DNA from: Alicyclobacillus sp. SP_1 | Lineage (GTDB): Bacteria; Bacillota; Bacilli; Alicyclobacillales; Alicyclobacillaceae | Assembly: GCF_024706985.1 (NCBI RefSeq) | Contig: NZ_JAMCCX010000028.1 | Span: forward strand, 1-64,000 | Direction: 5' to 3' | Length of the DNA: 64,000 nt | Shown here: positions 33,598-42,686 of the stretch, piece by piece | Position numbering within the stretch: the stretch's first letter is position 1 | How the letters are laid out: each line of letters starts with the position of its first letter | Made by a program: the position numbers and the translations under genes | The notes under the pieces: model-generated | Told to the model about the DNA's origin: nothing | The model's database searches: none | What the model saw: only the letters and a program-made list of their open reading frames with translations

Positions 33598-36500
33598 ATG
33601 GCTACGCGGCAAATGAACGATTTCCGTACAGGTGCTTGTACAGGGGTGAATCTGCGTTATATCCCAGCCATCACTTGTCGGGACATCGGAATTCTTATGA
33701 GGGAAAGTTCTGTATCTGGTCATCTTAGCGAGCAGTGTGTATCGCTAGAAGAATGTTTGCAGGAGATTTTTTCTGAGTCTCCAAGTGCTTTGAAGCCAGG
33801 AGCACCGGATTGGCTGTATGAATCTGCTGTATTGGCTTTTGAAATGGTACAAACAGGAGATGTCATCGGGTTTGCGGCCCCGAGTCATCTATCTTCGTTA
33901 GAAGTGCAAAAGATGGCCCGGACGCTGTCGGATACCACCAACGATACCATTCCGTCAGTGCTGTTCACTCCTTCTCCGTTTATCGCTATGTGGTTACCAG
34001 CCTGGAGCAATCCCTCCTTCCGTGCAATTCGTCGACGGTTGGTAAGCCTTTTCTTGGAAAGCACGACGAAAACATTCGATATTTCTTCTGTCGAAGAGAC
34101 GGCAACTGTAGTGGATAGTCTCGTGACGGACTGGATTTCCATTTGGATGGACCAGCTGTGCAACGAGGTCCTGGAAATGAACGAAGCGGTGGCAAAGCCG
34201 TCTTATCGAGTTCTGTACCGTGGAGAAGAGGAGATTTTGAAGGCATGGTTCCATGCATTGAAAAAAAGCAGGAAGCAAGAATTTGCTGCGGATGGGTGGC
34301 TTATTGGTCGAGCTCTACGCCAGGAATTAACTGCGACCGGATGGATTTCTCCTGACCTGACGGATTGGACTGGCAAGACGTTTTATCAATTGGGTTTTTC
34401 TCTTTGTGCCCCGGAAGTAGCAACGAATCCATGGACATTGAAGTACGAATTGGTTCATCGGTACTTTGGAACGCGTATTCCTCTAGGTGCTTGGTGGAAC
34501 AGTGAAATACGCTGCTTAAGAACGGGTTCGGATATTTTAGTTGGGGCGGATGTATGGATATTGGAGCGGTTGTTGGTAGCATCTCGAATGGATACTGCCA
34601 TTGCTGAATCACTGCATCATCCGGTACCTGTTTCTGCCGAATTAGCGGCAAAAGGTTTGATGGAGTGGATGGAGGAGTCACTGCCAAAGCTGCATGCGGC
34701 TGGATTTTCAGTCCAAACACCAGCATGGTCGGATGCGCCGGCTGACGTGAAAATTCGCGTACAAGTCAAATCGAGCAAGTTCCGTAGAGAGTCTTCTATG
34801 CCCCGAAGTAGCATCTCGTCTGGGCGATTGGCAAGCATTCCGTTGGTAGAGTTCGACTGGACGGTAGTTATCGACAATCAGGAATTAACACAAGAGCAGT
34901 TTATGGACATGGTTGCTGAGAAACAAAATTTAGTGGAGATAAACGGTTCATGGAAACTGGTTTCTTTAGGTGATATTTTGCGTAAAATGGAGTCTATTGG
35001 ATTAGGATTGTCGACAGAAAGTCATTCCATATCGGCTTTGCGCTTGTCCCGAAGCTTGTTGCTTCAAGAAGCGACGGATGACCTTTCAGTGGATTTCTCA
35101 TATACAGAGGATGCGAGAGAAGCAGAGCAACTGATTCGTTCGATGATAAGTGCTGGAAGCCCGCCAGAGGTCAATACGCCACAAGGTTTTGTTGGAGAAT
35201 TGCGGCCGTATCAAAAACTCGGATTTTCATGGATGGTCCACTTGCGCAATTTGCACTGCGGAGCTTGTTTGGCAGATGACATGGGGTTGGGTAAGACTGT
35301 TCAAGTGATCGCTTATTTGCAATACATTCATGAACAACGACTCAATGAGGCACCCCATTTATTGGTGTGTCCCACCTCATTGATTCAAAATTGGAGGTCA
35401 GAACTGGCTCGGTTTGCTCCGGAACTGCGTGTACACCTTCATCATGGTCCGAATCGGAACGATGTTCAAGAAAGTGGCTGGAGCGTATTAGAAGAAGCAT
35501 TGTCAAAGGTGGACATTATTCTTACGACGTATGCCATTTTGGTTCGGGATGAAGAACAGTTGACGAATCTGAACTTTGACGTAGTGGTCGTCGATGAAGC
35601 ACAAAACATCAAAAACATTCAAACGAAGCAATCGAAGGCAGCCATGCGACTGACTGCAAAGCATCGTATCGCTTTGACAGGCACGCCTGTTGAGAATCGT
35701 CTGGAGGAACTCTGGTCAATTTTGTCTTTCGTCAATCCAGGATACCTCGGAACACAAAGCTGGTTTAGAAATCAATTTGAGTTGCCTATAGGAGAAGATG
35801 CAAGCCATCCTGCTGGTCATCGACTTCGTGCCCTGTTGAAGCCTGTTCTGTTGCGACGTAGAAAGTCGGAACCGTCGATACGAATGGAACTTCCTGAAAA
35901 ATGGGAGACGAGGTCATACGCTTCGCTTACCGTCGAGCAGGCTGCGTTGTACCAGTCCGTAGTAGATAGGCTTTTTGGACATCTGGAAAATTCCACAGAT
36001 ATGTCACGACGTGGCCAGATTCTCGCTTCACTGGTGCGTCTGAAACAAATTTGTGACTATCCCGGATTGGTTGCAGGTGGAAAACTAGACATCAGTCGTT
36101 CTGGGAAATTGAAGCTTCTTCTGGAGTTGCTGGATGAAGTCGATTCTAATCTAGATGCTGCGCTCATCTTTACGCAATTTCGAGAGATGGGACATCTATT
36201 GACGGAAGCCATCGAATTGCGCTTTGGTCAGAAACCACTTTTTCTACATGGAGGACTTTCTGCCCGCATGCGCGGAGAGATGGTGCATGCCTATCAACAT
36301 GGTGCAGAAGTATCGCCGTTTTTTGTTCTATCACTCCGTGCAGGTGGGGTTGGCTTGAATTTGACAAGGGCTAATCACGTGTTCCATTTCGATCGATGGT
36401 GGAATCCTGCAGTAGAAGATCAAGCTACAGATCGTGCTTTTCGAATGGGGCAGACGAGAGATGTTCAAGTTCACAAATTAATTTGTGCGGGGACGTTAGA

Positions 36501-36651
36501 AGAACGGATCGATGAACTTTTATCTGCAAAGAGAGAGTTATCTCAATCCGTGGTAGGAACATCGGAAGCTTGGGTGACGGAATTGGACAATCATATGCTT
36601 CGCGAATTATTTCAACTGGATGCCAGCGTGGAAATAGAGGAGGATGCGTGA
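33598..36651 (+). CDS. SNF2-family DNA helicase/translocase
   Basis: The 1017-residue protein has a long N-terminal region with a SNF2-associated (DUF3670-like) part, roughly 250-500. A SNF2 ATPase follows: motif I DDMGLGKTVQV near 560, DEAQNIKN, and LTGTPVENRLEELWSIL. The C-terminal lobe has FTQFREMGHLL, LSLRAGGVGLNLTRANHVFHFDRWWNPAVEDQATDRAFRMGQ. It would move along duplex DNA to remodel protein-DNA complexes, perhaps in repair or transcription recycling. The ATG has AGAGAGG upstream and its stop overlaps the SWIM gene by one base. Confidence 0.93.
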   Translation: MATRQMNDFRTGACTGVNLRYIPAITCRDIGILMRESSVSGHLSEQCVSLEECLQEIFSESPSALKPGAPDWLYESAVLAFEMVQTGDVIGFAAPSHLSSLEVQKMARTLSDTTNDTIPSVLFTPSPFIAMWLPAWSNPSFRAIRRRLVSLFLESTTKTFDISSVEETATVVDSLVTDWISIWMDQLCNEVLEMNEAVAKPSYRVLYRGEEEILKAWFHALKKSRKQEFAADGWLIGRALRQELTATGWISPDLTDWTGKTFYQLGFSLCAPEVATNPWTLKYELVHRYFGTRIPLGAWWNSEIRCLRTGSDILVGADVWILERLLVASRMDTAIAESLHHPVPVSAELAAKGLMEWMEESLPKLHAAGFSVQTPAWSDAPADVKIRVQVKSSKFRRESSMPRSSISSGRLASIPLVEFDWTVVIDNQELTQEQFMDMVAEKQNLVEINGSWKLVSLGDILRKMESIGLGLSTESHSISALRLSRSLLLQEATDDLSVDFSYTEDAREAEQLIRSMISAGSPPEVNTPQGFVGELRPYQKLGFSWMVHLRNLHCGACLADDMGLGKTVQVIAYLQYIHEQRLNEAPHLLVCPTSLIQNWRSELARFAPELRVHLHHGPNRNDVQESGWSVLEEALSKVDIILTTYAILVRDEEQLTNLNFDVVVVDEAQNIKNIQTKQSKAAMRLTAKHRIALTGTPVENRLEELWSILSFVNPGYLGTQSWFRNQFELPIGEDASHPAGHRLRALLKPVLLRRRKSEPSIRMELPEKWETRSYASLTVEQAALYQSVVDRLFGHLENSTDMSRRGQILASLVRLKQICDYPGLVAGGKLDISRSGKLKLLLELLDEVDSNLDAALIFTQFREMGHLLTEAIELRFGQKPLFLHGGLSARMRGEMVHAYQHGAEVSPFFVLSLRAGGVGLNLTRANHVFHFDRWWNPAVEDQATDRAFRMGQTRDVQVHKLICAGTLEERIDELLSAKRELSQSVVGTSEAWVTELDNHMLRELFQLDASVEIEEDA

Positions 36652-37397
36652 TGCGTCGTCGTTCAAAAGTGTGGACTGTAGAAGCTATGTGGAAGCCTTT
36701 TTTGTCAGCAGTAGAGCCAGGCAGACTGCGCAGAGCGAGAACTTCGGCACGACAAGGAGATATCGTGCATATGAAATTCGTTGATGGATACTGGCAGGGG
36801 GAATGTTCGAATACCTCCAGTGTCCGGCGCATAGAAGCGTTTCAGTTACGCGCTATTTCGGATTGGAGACCAGTGAGTTCGGTCATCGCGCGATGGCTGG
36901 CGCAGCATCCTGATTGGCTTGCCAGCCTGATTTCTGGGGAGTGGGACGAAATTTTTTTGCAACATATTTCCGCAATAAACGTTGCCGTATTTCCAACGGA
37001 GTCCATTGTCCTCGATTGGAAACAAACAGCTAGTTGTACGTGTGCTGATGTCGATCCGCTTTGTCGACACGTCGTCTCTGCTCTGTTGAAGGTTATGTGG
37101 GATATGGAGGAAAATCCTTTATTGTCTTTACAATGGCTTGGATGCAATCCGTTGACTTTGCTAGACTCCATTCATTCTATTGCACAAAAATACTGGTCGG
37201 CCCATCGACATGTGCAGAACCAACAGGATGCAAAGGAAGAACTTTGTGAGCAAATCTCCATCGGCAAGTTCAACGAAAAAGAAATTTCAAGTTCTGTTAG
37301 TCAGTCAGGGAGACGATTTGCTCCCGTATTAGATTCCACAAAGATGGAATATTGGAGCAACCTCTTAAAGAATACGGATTTTTCATCTTCGAGATAG
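36651..37397 (+). CDS. SWIM zinc-finger protein
   Basis: The 248-residue product carries a SWIM motif, C-x-C-x6-C-x-H (in CTCADVDPLCRHV near residue 130), which binds zinc and is common beside SNF2 helicases. The N-terminal part is rich in Trp and Arg; the C-terminal part is helical. The pair probably works as a helicase and DNA- or protein-binding adaptor. ATG 36651 has GAGGAGG six bases upstream and overlaps the helicase stop (TGATG), so translation is coupled. Confidence 0.88.
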   Translation: MRRRSKVWTVEAMWKPFLSAVEPGRLRRARTSARQGDIVHMKFVDGYWQGECSNTSSVRRIEAFQLRAISDWRPVSSVIARWLAQHPDWLASLISGEWDEIFLQHISAINVAVFPTESIVLDWKQTASCTCADVDPLCRHVVSALLKVMWDMEENPLLSLQWLGCNPLTLLDSIHSIAQKYWSAHRHVQNQQDAKEELCEQISIGKFNEKEISSSVSQSGRRFAPVLDSTKMEYWSNLLKNTDFSSSR

Positions 37398-37863: not shown

Positions 37864-37875
37864 GAACATACGTTT
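37864..37875 (+). promoter_or_regulatory. LexA box 1 (upstream)
   Basis: GAACATACGTTT matches the Gram-positive LexA pattern GAACN4GTTC except for the last base. It overlaps the -35 region of the imuB-like promoter. Confidence 0.7.
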
Positions 37876-37901
37876 GTATTTTGCTGCAAATCGTATATAA
37901 T
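37873..37901 (+). promoter_or_regulatory. promoter of the SOS mutasome cassette
   Basis: TTTGTA/TTGTAT (37873-37879) stands 16-17 bases before a perfect TATAAT (37896-37901). Transcription would start near 37908, inside LexA box 2. Confidence 0.75.
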
Positions 37902-37905
37902 AAAA

Positions 37906-37917
37906 GAACACACGTTC
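37906..37917 (+). promoter_or_regulatory. LexA box 2 (downstream, perfect half-sites)
   Basis: GAACACACGTTC has both perfect LexA half-sites, GAAC and GTTC, spaced by four. It covers the expected transcription start. Together with box 1 it brackets the -10 hexamer, giving tight repression until DNA damage. Confidence 0.85.
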
Positions 37918-37936
37918 TTGTTTAGGGGGGTAAAAT

Positions 37937-39214
37937 ATGCGTTATGGACTTTACGTACATGGCCAAGGGTGGATGTTACCGAATTGCCACGGGAGTTGTG
38001 TAGCCATTCGCTATCGTCAGGTAGTTGATTGGACCGTGCTTGCGTATAAAAAAGGTATTCGAAGGGGGCTTTTACTTGACCAAGCGAAGCTGTTAGTTCC
38101 CGAACTACAGCATATCGAAGCAGATGAGACAACCGACGAATGGATTGAAAAGATACGAAGAGTGGTGTTTCAAAGGACTCCTTGGGTTCAAACATTTGGT
38201 TGGCGAACACTGGCTGCCGAATTGTCTGGAAAAAAACCGCCATTGAAGGAATCATTAGATATTTTTAAAGAGATCTGTGCTTTACTAACCAGTCAGCAGC
38301 GAGTTGTAGTTTCTTTAGCAGAGACGGCATCTTTAGCGCGCTCGATGCTATGGTGGAGATCTCATGAAAAAATACCCAATTCATTGGAGAAGTATTTGAA
38401 TGGCAATTTGTTTTTGGTCTCTCCAGGGTTATTAAGGTCGTCCGATTCTAAAGAAGCTGATAAGTCTGAAAGTAAATCAAGGGAATGCCACTCTAGCAGG
38501 AGGTTGTTTTGTCCAGAGTCCGTATCCATTCCGGAATGGTTTCTACATTTTCCTCTTCATGCTCTGTCGAGATTGAGTGAGTCAGACAGGGTGCGTCTGC
38601 GCTCTTTAGGAATTCATCGACTGGGGCAGTTATTGTCTCATCCGATTGCAGATGTAAAAAGTCAGTTTGGTTCAGATTTTTCAACGGAATTGCTCGGTTG
38701 GCTATCGCATTCCGGGAGAATACACGTCAATTACCCAACGAATCAGCTTCATTTTTCTTGGGAAGCTACGATGTTTGAAGAGCCTACTATGGAGCATGCT
38801 CTTAGCATTATCGGGCGGATATGCCAACGGGCTTCTCGGGAACTTCTGCGGAGGGAAGTTTTTGCTCAGAGAGTTTTAATATCATGGAAATCGAATGCTG
38901 CTTCCGGGTGCTTTGAAATTCATTTAAAAAATCCAACATCTCAAGCGGATATCCTTCTGCCTCAAATAAAAAGTTGTTTGTCTAAAATCCGAGGAACGAC
39001 ATTGGAGCGCTTAAAATTGTCGATACCAGATTTTTCACGGGAATCAGGTCTTCAAAGTTGTTTGCATTCCATTCAAGTTGAAGAAAAATTTTATAAAGAG
39101 AATCTTTGTTTTGCGATTGACAATATAGAAAAACGTTTTCCTGGAAAACTACACAAGGGGATTCGACCTTCGTATCGAGAGTTGTTGTTTCATTCTGTAC
39201 TGCAAGAGATATGA
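37937..39214 (+). CDS. ImuB-like, polymerase-dead Y-family protein
   Basis: The 425-residue product follows the ImuB plan: a degenerate palm/finger region, then GIRRGLLLDQAKLLVPEL (the usual GVRPGM-LAEA-LCP-L phrase). A helix-hairpin-helix-like thumb reads LHALSRLSESDRVRLRSLGIHRLGQLLSHP. A little-finger part starts at FSWEATMFEEPTMEHAL. The N-terminus lacks the acidic metal-binding residues of active Y polymerases, so it is likely a bridge that brings DnaE2 to the beta clamp. No obvious clamp-binding pentapeptide is seen. AGGGGGG ends six bases before the ATG. LexA control indicates SOS induction. Confidence 0.8.
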   Translation: MRYGLYVHGQGWMLPNCHGSCVAIRYRQVVDWTVLAYKKGIRRGLLLDQAKLLVPELQHIEADETTDEWIEKIRRVVFQRTPWVQTFGWRTLAAELSGKKPPLKESLDIFKEICALLTSQQRVVVSLAETASLARSMLWWRSHEKIPNSLEKYLNGNLFLVSPGLLRSSDSKEADKSESKSRECHSSRRLFCPESVSIPEWFLHFPLHALSRLSESDRVRLRSLGIHRLGQLLSHPIADVKSQFGSDFSTELLGWLSHSGRIHVNYPTNQLHFSWEATMFEEPTMEHALSIIGRICQRASRELLRREVFAQRVLISWKSNAASGCFEIHLKNPTSQADILLPQIKSCLSKIRGTTLERLKLSIPDFSRESGLQSCLHSIQVEEKFYKENLCFAIDNIEKRFPGKLHKGIRPSYRELLFHSVLQEI

Positions 39215-39453
39215 GTCGAATCGTCACTCGCTCCATCGCCGTGACAGAATGGAATAGAGAGAGACCAAAGTCGTTTTGGGATGGTAAAGAACAACATTTG
39301 GTGGAACGCATCATAGACGAATGGTGGGAAATGGGGGCTTGGTGGGAAGGTGAAGGAACGCGTCGAATGATACGCATTGAGACCTCTGAATTGCAGTGGA
39401 TGGATATCGAGTGCGTAGACGGCATTTGGTCTATTTATCGAATATGGGATTGA
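39211..39453 (+). CDS. small accessory protein of the mutasome cassette, DUF6504-like
   Basis: The 80-residue product is Trp-rich: FWDGKEQHLVERIIDEWWEMGAWWEGEGTRRMIRIE and then DIECVDGIWSIYRIWD. From memory it resembles the DUF6504 proteins found next to imuB and dnaE2 in Actinobacteria and other groups; that is not verified. Its ATG overlaps the imuB-like stop by 4 bp, and its stop lies 11 bp before dnaE2. It is therefore locked into the cassette. The role is unknown; a structural link between the two polymerase-like proteins is one possibility. Confidence 0.75.
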   Translation: MSRIVTRSIAVTEWNRERPKSFWDGKEQHLVERIIDEWWEMGAWWEGEGTRRMIRIETSELQWMDIECVDGIWSIYRIWD

Positions 39454-39464
39454 GAGGGAAACAG

Positions 39465-42400
39465 ATGTTCATTCACTTGCATTGTCATTCTATCTATTCG
39501 TTTTTTGATGGTGCAGCACGAATTGAATCGTTGGTTGCGACAGCTGCTTTGCATGGAATGTCGTCCTTGGCTCTGACGGATCACAACACCATTACTGGAT
39601 TACCTGAATTTCACCAGTGGTGTAATATATATGGAATTAAGCCGATTTCGGGGGCAGAATTGACTTTAGAAGATGGTTCCCATATTACAGTCATTGCAAA
39701 GAATAAAAGTGGGTATTCGAATTTGTGTAAAATATTAACCTCCGCTTATGGAGGACCTGCGCCTTGGAACATAAATTCAGTCTACAGGAAAGTGAGTTTG
39801 TCCAAACGAAAGAATCCGTACGTTACCATGGAGTCATTGTTTCAAAATAAAGAAGGTTTGATTGTTTTGACAGGGTGTCGGCGTAGTCGATTGGTGCAAC
39901 TTTTGCTAGCTAAGAGATATCGAGACGCTGAGGAGTGGATGGCGTGGTTAAAAAAACATTTTGCAGAAAATATTTATCTGGAAATGCAATGCAATGGGTT
40001 TCCTGGAGAGCATGTTTTGTTAGCACTTATGAAACACCTTTCAGAACATGTGGGGGTTCCTCTATGTGCGACCGGAAATGTCCATTATGTCGACCGGCAC
40101 GATTACCCTATTCATGATTTATTACGCTGCATGGGTGTACCTCAGCACGTGTGGGTGCCGAGCGCAATTCGTCCACTGAATGATCGTCAATGGTTGTATT
40201 CCTCCGAGGAAGCGTGTCATCGGTTTTCCGAATATCCAGAAGCTATAAGTAACACTTATAAAATATCGGAAATGTGTGAAGTAGTTCTTAGAATTGGAGA
40301 AACGACCTTTCCTGAGTTTTCGAAATGCAGCTCTAGTCATCAACAGCTGTCCTTAAAAGAATTGGTGTATCAAGGAGCCCAAGAGCGTTATAGCACGTTG
40401 ACAGATAAGATACGCTTTCGGCTGGAATACGAATTAGAAATTATACAAAACTTAGGCTATGAAGATTATTTCTTGATTGTATGGGATGTCGTGAGATTTG
40501 CTCGCTCCAAAGGAATTCGCTGCTCGGGAAGAGGTTCTGCAGCTGACTCGGCGGTGGCTTTCTGTCTTTTCATTACCGATGTTGATTCTATTTCGAGAGG
40601 CTTACTGTTTGAACGCTTTTTAAGCATAGAACGCGCTGAACGTCCCGATATTGATGTCGATGTCGAGGCGGACAGACGAGACGAATTGATGCAATATGTT
40701 TACGATTCATACGGATTTGAGCGGGTGGCGAGAATTGCTACTTATCAAACATTCCGGGGGCGGATGGCAGTTCGGGCCATTGGTGCTGCTCTTGGTTTGC
40801 CAGAAGCTTTCATCGATGATTTGGCAAAAAGAATTCCTGGTATGGCAAGTGCCGATGGATTGGAGTCGCTGCTTCAAAATGTTCCGGAATTGAGAGCGTA
40901 TTCTGCCTTCTACAAACAGGTTCAGCTGTTATGGAATATGGCAAGTCAAATCGCTGGTTTTCCCAGGCATTTTGGGATGCATGTTGGTGGGGTTGTCATC
41001 AGTGCTAAGCCATTGTATGAATTCACGTCTCTCCAACCCTCTGGGAAAGGAGAGTGGATGACGGCCTTCGATAAAGAGGGTGTAGAGGCAGTGGGTTTGA
41101 TGAAATTGGATTTACTTTCTCTTCGTACACTCTCCGCCGTGGAAGGAACTGTAAAGCTTAGCGAAGTAACCTCTGGACAAATCGATTTTGGAAAGATCCC
41201 ATTAGACGACGAGCCAACGTTTGAGATGATTCGACAAGGGGAAACCATTGGCGTGTTTCAATTGGAAAGTCCCGCACAAAGAGCATTGCAGAGCAGACTT
41301 CGGGCGGATCGTATGGAGGACATTATTGCGAGTGTTGCGCTCATTCGTCCGGGCCCAATTCAAGGCAATATGGTCGATCCGTTTTTAGAACGTCGGCACG
41401 GCAAATCTCCTATATTGTATCTTCATCCAAAGTTGGAACCCATCTTAAGAAAAACTTATGGGGTTGTCCTCTTTCAAGAACAAGTGATTGAAATCGCTAC
41501 AGCCATTGCACATTTTACACCAGGAGAGGCAGATCAATTGAGACGCGTCATGAGCAAGGCGAGATCCGCCCATGAAATCAAAAAGATAGGTGAAACATTT
41601 ATAGATAGAGCAGTTCAATCGGGGGTAGATGTGAAGACGGCAGAAGACATATTTCATTACGTTCAAGGCTATGCAGGCTATGGCTTTTGCGAAGCTCACG
41701 CTGCAGCTTTTGGGACACTGGCGTACAAGACTGCCTACTTAGTGAAGCATTACCCGGCGGAATTTTTTGCGTCGATCATTAATCAATCTCCAATGGGCTA
41801 TTATCCGATTCATGTGCTCTGCTCGGAGGCTAAACGCCGTGGAGTAGCAGTTTTGGGACTGGATGTTAATGAGAGTGAATGTGAATGTATGGCGACAAAT
41901 CAAACTACTGTTCGATTTGGGTGGATGCAACTCAAAGGAATGCCTAGAGCACTTTCGGAGCAGATTGTCAGAATTCGTAATGCAAGCGGTCGGTTTGCAG
42001 GTGTCCAAGATTTTATACAGAGAGTTCCTGAAATCAATCGGTGGATGTTGGAAAACATGATTCGAGCAGGAGCATTTGATGGTGTGATGAGGAAAACTCG
42101 CGAAGAAATTCTCTGGAAATTGCCAGAGTGGCTGGCTTATCGTGAGTGGAATATGTCTCCATTGGGACGGCTGAACAAAGCTATGGTGCCAGTTGACGAA
42201 AGGTACATACAGGAAAATATTGGGGAAAAAGTTGCATGGAGTGATAGTGCAACTCACAACGAAGAGATTGCTGTAAAAAATTCAGAAATACAAATTCTTG
42301 ATGAGTACAGCTTGTTGGGAAATGGCTTTTCAGGTCATTGGATGACACTGTATCGACCCAAATTAGCAGGGCGAGGGTACTTGTTCATAGAGTCTCTGGA

Positions 42401-42686
42401 TTCTTTAGGGGATGGGGCTATGGTTCAAATTGCAGGGCTTGTGGTCAGACCACATCGGCCACCGACGAAGAGCGGGCAGACTGTGGTTTTCTTTACGGTA
42501 GAAGATGAGACAGGGATTGTTGATGCAACGATGTTTCATTCGGTATATCAAAAATCCGGAGGGGTTTTGTTCACTCCTCGCGGTCGAATGGTTGGATTGA
42601 GAGGGATTTTGCAGAGGAGAGGGGGGAATCGACCGAATGTCATGGTGTCGACCATATGGACCTTAATGAGAGGTTCAGAAATATGA
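39465..42686 (+). CDS. dnaE2: error-prone DNA polymerase ImuC/DnaE2
   Basis: The 1073-residue C-family polymerase is of DnaE2/ImuC length. The PHP domain begins HLHCHSIYSFFDG with LTDHNTITG, GAEL and ATGNVHYVD. The palm has the catalytic Asp pair in RPDIDVDVE (near 410) and the third Asp in GLMKLDLLSLRTL. EAHAAAFGTLAYKTAYLVKHYPAEF and a C-terminal OB domain (MVQIAGLVVRPHRPPTKSGQTVVFFTVEDE) follow. It makes mutagenic bypass synthesis in the SOS response. ATG 39465 is chosen; GAGAGGG lies about eight bases upstream. The gene is AT-rich compared with the window's first half. Confidence 0.93.
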   Translation: MFIHLHCHSIYSFFDGAARIESLVATAALHGMSSLALTDHNTITGLPEFHQWCNIYGIKPISGAELTLEDGSHITVIAKNKSGYSNLCKILTSAYGGPAPWNINSVYRKVSLSKRKNPYVTMESLFQNKEGLIVLTGCRRSRLVQLLLAKRYRDAEEWMAWLKKHFAENIYLEMQCNGFPGEHVLLALMKHLSEHVGVPLCATGNVHYVDRHDYPIHDLLRCMGVPQHVWVPSAIRPLNDRQWLYSSEEACHRFSEYPEAISNTYKISEMCEVVLRIGETTFPEFSKCSSSHQQLSLKELVYQGAQERYSTLTDKIRFRLEYELEIIQNLGYEDYFLIVWDVVRFARSKGIRCSGRGSAADSAVAFCLFITDVDSISRGLLFERFLSIERAERPDIDVDVEADRRDELMQYVYDSYGFERVARIATYQTFRGRMAVRAIGAALGLPEAFIDDLAKRIPGMASADGLESLLQNVPELRAYSAFYKQVQLLWNMASQIAGFPRHFGMHVGGVVISAKPLYEFTSLQPSGKGEWMTAFDKEGVEAVGLMKLDLLSLRTLSAVEGTVKLSEVTSGQIDFGKIPLDDEPTFEMIRQGETIGVFQLESPAQRALQSRLRADRMEDIIASVALIRPGPIQGNMVDPFLERRHGKSPILYLHPKLEPILRKTYGVVLFQEQVIEIATAIAHFTPGEADQLRRVMSKARSAHEIKKIGETFIDRAVQSGVDVKTAEDIFHYVQGYAGYGFCEAHAAAFGTLAYKTAYLVKHYPAEFFASIINQSPMGYYPIHVLCSEAKRRGVAVLGLDVNESECECMATNQTTVRFGWMQLKGMPRALSEQIVRIRNASGRFAGVQDFIQRVPEINRWMLENMIRAGAFDGVMRKTREEILWKLPEWLAYREWNMSPLGRLNKAMVPVDERYIQENIGEKVAWSDSATHNEEIAVKNSEIQILDEYSLLGNGFSGHWMTLYRPKLAGRGYLFIESLDSLGDGAMVQIAGLVVRPHRPPTKSGQTVVFFTVEDETGIVDATMFHSVYQKSGGVLFTPRGRMVGLRGILQRRGGNRPNVMVSTIWTLMRGSEI

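Follow-up and report, generated by a model that had tools for sequence, protein, structure and literature searches.

The analysed window, a stretch of 64,000 nucleotides from one contig of Alicyclobacillus sp. SP_1 (3.4 Mb genome, assembly completeness 99.98%), carries on its + strand, at 37864-42686, a cassette that very probably encodes an SOS-induced translesion mutasome of the iPolY-ImuB-C-DnaE2 type. In this cassette a promoter region with two LexA boxes is followed by the genes for an inactive Y-family polymerase (iPolY), an 80-residue protein and DnaE2. It is a further member of an already published system, whose architecture and lack of ImuA are both in print. The assignment is supported by the gene order and its conservation, the lost active site of the first protein, the ImuB-C membership of the second, the paired LexA boxes, the failure to find ImuA, and the LexA boxes in front of lexA and recA. 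The genetics of a similarly built cassette of Deinococcus deserti also count in its favour. From these observations we infer that the complex assembles and through which contacts, that LexA binds and that mutations result. Our additions are modest, namely the family-wide pairing of the LexA operators and the weakness of the RecA-NT motif. An earlier note on this DNA had described a dead Y-family gene, a small Trp-rich gene and dnaE2 behind LexA boxes, and all three frames were confirmed at 37937-42686. The elements of the cassette are as follows.

37864..37875, + strand: LexA box 1, GAACATACGTTT, overlapping the -35-like hexamer (strict pattern, kept in the family)
37874..37901, + strand: promoter-like TTGTAT-N16-TATAAT, with a weak -35 and a perfect -10 (from the sequence)
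37906..37917, + strand: LexA box 2, GAACACACGTTC, a palindrome immediately downstream of the -10 (strict pattern, kept in the family)
37937..39214, + strand: iPolY, an ImuY-like inactive Y-family protein of 425 amino acids (open reading frame, profile and model matches)
39053..39067, + strand: iPolY codons 373-377, QSCLH, at the place of the beta-clamp-binding motif (alignment position)
39101..39160, + strand: diverged RecA-NT-like segment, NLCFAIDNIEKRFPGKLHKG, iPolY codons 389-408 (motif scans, weak support)
39211..39453, + strand: standalone ImuB-C (DUF6504), 80 amino acids, predicted all-beta with seven strands (Pfam, predicted structure)
39465..42686, + strand: DnaE2-type error-prone DNA polymerase, 1073 amino acids (Pfam, tree)

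The iPolY and 80-residue frames share an ATGA overlap. The dnaE2 start was taken as the ATG at 39465, and the list of open reading frames opens this frame at the GTG at 39396.

The small protein had been called Trp-rich and proposed as a different adaptor occupying the slot of ImuA. It does contain nine Trp residues, and the Pfam analysis assigned it to DUF6504 (ImuB-C), not to a new family. All 14 small proteins scanned (the window copy and 13 of its 32 relatives; reporting limit E 10) matched DUF6504, with a best E of 5.6e-7, and the four distant copies located beside a PolY gene (L143, L145, L147 and L154) were all above the family cut-off. The same family matched the C-terminus of ImuB in Sinorhizobium (residues 429-504 of 507, E 5.9e-6), and among 14 control genomes a match was obtained in Caulobacter only. 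A model of the family small proteins scored 35.7 bits against the ImuB-C of D. deserti, a value quoted in bits, not as an E value, because the database held three sequences. In database records, 'DUF6504 family protein' is the name given to the gene of D. deserti and to a copy on an Alicyclobacillus plasmid. YolD was absent from the Pfam scans of the small proteins, which returned DUF6504 instead. By these matches, the small gene is assigned as a detached ImuB C-terminal domain and not as a new adaptor, so that no replacement for ImuA need be invented.

The structural data were in line with this assignment. For the 80-residue protein, a beta fold of seven strands was predicted with confidence (predicted local distance difference test score, pLDDT, 93.3; predicted template modelling score, pTM, 0.80). 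The fold had no PDB match at E <= 0.001, which agrees with a passage of a 2026 polymerase survey stating that ImuB-C is without a close PDB relative. It is scarcely credible that the protein substitutes for ImuA as a novel adaptor with no kinship to ImuB. Such a role would fit the poor DUF6504 score of the window copy itself (E 0.014, 16.1 bits, under the cut-off of 24.2), the presence of DUF6504 in only one of three ImuB-type proteins, and the lack of a significant PDB relative by fold or by sequence (best E 1.8). It is contradicted, however, by the DUF6504 matches in every copy scanned, with the distant ones over the cut-off, and by D. deserti, where a protein of the same length in the same slot has been published as ImuB-C. 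A likeness to spermidine synthase (best VIA-align Z 5.8) lies within the common range of the tool and was not taken as kinship. No match to the window small protein was detected in the phage collection at E <= 0.01.

The first protein of the cassette matched solved Y-family polymerases by profile (best E 2.7e-40). Its predicted model (mean pLDDT 82.3, pTM 0.57) gave 50 listed Foldseek matches, all of them Y-family polymerases (best E 8.3e-19). In place of the catalytic Asp-Glu pair the protein has Arg90-Thr91, and the catalytic Glu is kept in none of the 34 family iPolY proteins. Only this pair was counted, because the MAFFT alignment has a gap at the column of the catalytic first Asp in all 34 members. 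Residues 1-17 of the window protein include no acidic residue. The protein showed no DUF6504 match (Pfam, E <= 10) over its 425 residues and stops 24 residues past residue 401 of the RecA-NT-like segment, the ImuB-C domain being encoded by the next gene. We take QSCLH to be the beta-clamp motif, from its position and from the consensus of such motifs; Gln373, at this place, is invariant in all 23 alignment rows. L146 was left out of this and one other alignment, since its proteins are apparently the same as those of L145, judged by lengths and scores. The first protein is an inactive PolY without an ImuB-C domain. The earlier description of it as 'ImuB-like, polymerase-dead' thus holds as regards the Y-family fold and the lost Asp-Glu pair, and fails as regards ImuB, as no ImuB-C domain is fused to it.

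The third protein is a C-family polymerase with Pfam matches to the PHP, alpha NTPase, finger, HhH and OB domains. A tree of 24 rows, picked among the fetched loci and separate from the published DnaE2X tree, placed it (100/100) with 12 other Bacillota DnaE2s from loci containing the small gene, apart from five DnaE2s encoded beside ImuB-type genes (100/99; three of the five with an annotated ImuA). The genome encodes two further C-family polymerases, DnaE3-like and PolC-like by size and match.

The cassette is widespread in Alicyclobacillaceae. iPolY was found in 34 of the 41 family genomes (own included), and DnaE2 is located downstream of it in all 33 relatives fetched (one broken), with the small gene in between in 32 of them. 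A search of 398 genomes of the class Bacilli detected the small protein in 32, of which 27 belong to Alicyclobacillaceae. One genome, G017, has iPolY and DnaE2 with two LexA boxes and no small gene between them (L082); another of its contigs (L186) encodes a 79-residue ImuB-C with a LexA box 30 bases before the start.

Several other loci were recorded in the course of this survey. Eleven more ImuB-C-like genes, from eight family genomes (L183-L193), lie away from any iPolY-DnaE2 cassette, and seven of them have a LexA box at -1500 to +200 of the frame start; no such box was present at two named plasmid copies (L209, L212). The genes at L183 and L188 adjoin SRAP genes, and the latter is also near a frame that looks by eye like a DNA ligase; SRAP and ligase contexts of ImuB-C appear in a passage published in 2013 (PMC3765255). 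An Abditibacteriota plasmid (L154) shows the same gene order, with lexA followed by genes for a Y-family protein and a DUF6504 protein and then by dnaE2. Upstream of the cassette in the window, at 33598-37397 on the same strand, lie an SNF2-type helicase gene and a possible SWIM-domain gene, the SWIM match being under the cut-off.

Both LexA boxes conform to the strict pattern and flank the -10 hexamer TATAAT (37896-37901). The earlier claim of two GAACN4GTTC boxes around one TATAAT therefore stands in this respect, and needs correction in that the exact palindrome is found at 37906-37917 (box 2) only. The -35-like hexamer TTGTAT (37874-37879) agrees with the consensus in 3 of 6 positions, the spacer is 16, and the promoter was absent from the list produced by a consensus promoter scan. 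Single loose LexA boxes occur in the window at chance level (9 found, 6.66 expected). When the region from -300 to +120 of the frame start was scanned in 34 cassettes (the window and 33 relatives), 33 had one or more strict boxes and 30 had two, the paired boxes being 42 to 53 bases apart from start to start. As background, the downstream remainder of these 34 loci (258,497 bp) contained a single strict site, a contrast that is somewhat flattered by the mostly coding background and by the relatedness of the cassettes. The pairing seems to be maintained by selection, and LexA control of the cassette is predicted from the conserved boxes. Genome-wide, the strict pattern gave 43 strand matches, compared with 24 for a reversed control, and among the strict sites elsewhere in the genome are a pair in front of lexA, a single one in front of recA and a further pair in front of a UvrX-like polymerase gene. 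Two UvrX-like Y-family genes, with LexA-type boxes close by, are present in the genome (L199 on G000:C55, L200 on G000:C66), and the C55 copy is split in two frames.

PF00154 by itself is a poor test for ImuA, as a canonical ImuA gave no Pfam match at E <= 1; the searches of the genome therefore used the ImuA model of NCBIfam and an alignment of six rows, five of them annotated as ImuA and the sixth an unannotated neighbour. Both searches matched recA, and the single other match of the alignment was a 95-residue frame at E 0.04. By this model and alignment, with actinobacterial ImuA' left out of the queries, no ImuA was found in the genome. The model is blunt: at E <= 0.001 it gave matches in 10 of 14 control genomes, with E. 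coli and B. subtilis among these 10, and its cut-off was passed in none of the 14, Caulobacter included. The absence of ImuA from the cassette and its neighbourhood, as first noticed, was borne out, and a co-regulated ImuA elsewhere in the genome, the finding named in the earlier note as fatal to its proposal, did not come to light in this search.

That RecA substitutes for ImuA, by way of a RecA-NT motif in PolY, is a published idea (in a passage of PMC6511836). The best RecA-NT match in the window iPolY falls at the expected place, NLCFAIDNIEKRFPGKLHKG, after Gln373. In one scan, 18 of the 34 family proteins had their best match within the C-terminal 90 residues, compared with 17% expected by length, although some of these 18 lie off the aligned place of the motif (L084-L086 among them); in another scan, this was the case for 17 of 39 proteins (34 from the family and five others). 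The motif is clear in four metagenome relatives (L141, L142, L145 and L147). No motif was visible at the aligned position in the group of A. fructus, mali and sendaiensis, and many relatives gave no clear signal. A RecA subunit in Alicyclobacillaceae would thus be a cautious proposal, given the weak RecA-NT statistics in the window and its relatives. It is possible, though rather doubtful, that no RecA-like subunit is needed, with iPolY, ImuB-C and DnaE2 sufficing on the clamp and RecA serving only in LexA cleavage. Such an arrangement would be consistent with the failure to find ImuA in the genome and with the diverged, statistically unclear RecA-NT of the family, and a passage of a Deinococcus review gives the participation of RecA as not known (PMC8072749). 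It is harder to reconcile with the clear motif in the metagenome relatives, which have the same gene kinds, with a RecA-NT segment that can be aligned across the family, and with the mycobacterial ImuB, whose RecA-NT is required for ImuA' binding according to a passage of PMC11791113. We consider it unlikely that iPolY of Alicyclobacillaceae has lost the RecA-docking motif and kept the conserved 'FP..L..G...FRE.RL' tail, with ImuB-C alone holding together a mutasome that has neither ImuA nor a RecA subunit.

A number of results weigh against the assignment of the cassette to an SOS-induced iPolY-ImuB-C-DnaE2 mutasome. The RecA-NT match in the window iPolY reached p = 0.034 (tail), 0.14 (whole protein), 0.11 and 0.04 in three scans. 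A hidden Markov model of seven RecA N-termini gave no significant match in this protein, a miss that is uninformative because the model failed to pick up the motif in a control polymerase as well. The first residue of the catalytic pair is still Asp in 11 of the 34 family iPolY proteins, and the clamp motif of the window protein (QSCLH) is poor. Two of three ImuB-type proteins (Cupriavidus and Thermomicrobium) did not match DUF6504 at E <= 1. The comparison of the 14 small proteins with seven full-length ImuB-type proteins by hhalign gave a probability of 0.69%, with the Trp-Trp region aligned; since it was counted as no evidence, the ImuB-C identity is drawn from DUF6504 and the D. deserti match. 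In the DnaE2 tree, D. deserti falls in another branch, together with the Abditibacteriota plasmid of the same gene order, a placement that is unsure because of long branches. Outside the family, 10 cassette loci were scanned: one strict LexA box was found in L194, L140 and L147 (the first two of which seem to be one locus), two in none, and L196, L197 and L141-L145 were without a strict box. The double operator is therefore a trait of the family, not of the whole cassette type.

The last of these adverse results is that G027, the only genome of the same genus searched, had no match to iPolY or to the small protein; the cassette may have been lost or gained within the genus, or may be missing from that assembly. 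A cassette that is silent or in decay in Alicyclobacillus sp. SP_1, with no mutagenic role, would accommodate this absence, the broken dnaE2 of L090, and the odd residues of the window iPolY at the clamp-motif place and the N-terminus. We regard it as highly improbable, as none of the three frames is interrupted, the spacing between them is tight and the two LexA boxes have been retained. The dnaE2 of L090 and L133, an Alicyclobacillus suci contig, lies in several frames and is either broken or mis-assembled.

If the cassette works as an SOS-induced mutasome, LexA bound to the two operators around the promoter would repress it, and RecA filaments formed on damaged DNA would trigger LexA cleavage and joint expression of the three genes. 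DnaE2 would perform the error-prone synthesis. iPolY would act as a platform without DNA synthesis of its own, docked on the beta clamp through the motif located before the RecA-NT-like helix, and the 80-residue ImuB-C would link it to DnaE2, as the fused domain does in ImuB. RecA itself would probably replace ImuA at the diverged RecA-NT segment of iPolY. This type of mutasome, already published and hardly tested, would be spread through a family of acidophiles whose cassettes nearly all carry double LexA operators, and Alicyclobacillaceae would be good hosts for asking whether RecA is a subunit of complexes lacking ImuA.

The standalone form of ImuB-C has been reported before. Passages of Aravind 2013 (PMC3765255) named the domain and gave it as a companion of DnaE2, whether or not an inactive DinB is present. 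The arrangement seen here also figures in the 2026 polymerase survey. A passage of Timinskas and Venclovas 2019 (PMC6511836) describes an operon of Kyrpidia tusciae encoding an inactive PolY, a standalone ImuB-C and DnaE2, without ImuA, and the type DnaE2X-iPolY-ImuBC-RecA is given in a passage of PMC12926913. The K. tusciae operon, from the same NCBI family (Alicyclobacillaceae), shares with our cassette the three gene kinds, the inactive PolY and the lack of ImuA; it belongs to another species and is likened here by its published description, not by its own sequence. Two genomes of the same class with a like cassette (G354 and G370) branch close to the family, and no strict LexA box precedes their Y-family gene. 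In the open-access literature searched, no paper was found by the name DUF6504, and we do not claim the Alicyclobacillaceae cassette to be undescribed. The Firmicute mutasome without ImuA proposed in the earlier note is thus retained as an SOS-type cassette lacking ImuA, whereas the new adaptor is not, and the arrangement was already known from K. tusciae and D. deserti.

For D. deserti (locus L208), passages of PMC8072749 give the order lexA-imuY-imuB-C-dnaE2, a length of 80 residues for the protein encoded between imuY and dnaE2, the lack of imuA, and SOS control; according to the same passages, ultraviolet mutagenesis was abolished without ImuY, DnaE2 or RecAC; passages of PMC3901139 report a tenfold decrease upon deletion of imuY or dnaE2 (imuC). 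The order of the three genes, the length of the small protein and the lack of ImuA are the same as in our cassette. The two differ in that lexA is inside the D. deserti operon and its DnaE2 occupies the other, long branch of the tree; ImuY is barely alignable, with 1.6 bits against the window protein alone and 20.2 bits against the family profile.

The ImuA-ImuB-DnaE2 mutasome of Caulobacter, Mycobacterium and Pseudomonas has in common with the cassette an inactive Y-family protein, ImuB-C and DnaE2 under LexA. In contrast to that system, no ImuA was found for our cassette, its ImuB-C is a separate gene and its DnaE2 lies outside the ImuB-linked clade. The YqjW/UvrX-YolD-RecA system of Gram-positive bacteria likewise combines a LexA-controlled Y-family protein with a small beta-rich partner; there, however, the Y-family enzyme is active, DnaE2 is not involved and the partner is YolD, whereas the partner in our cassette is a DUF6504 protein.

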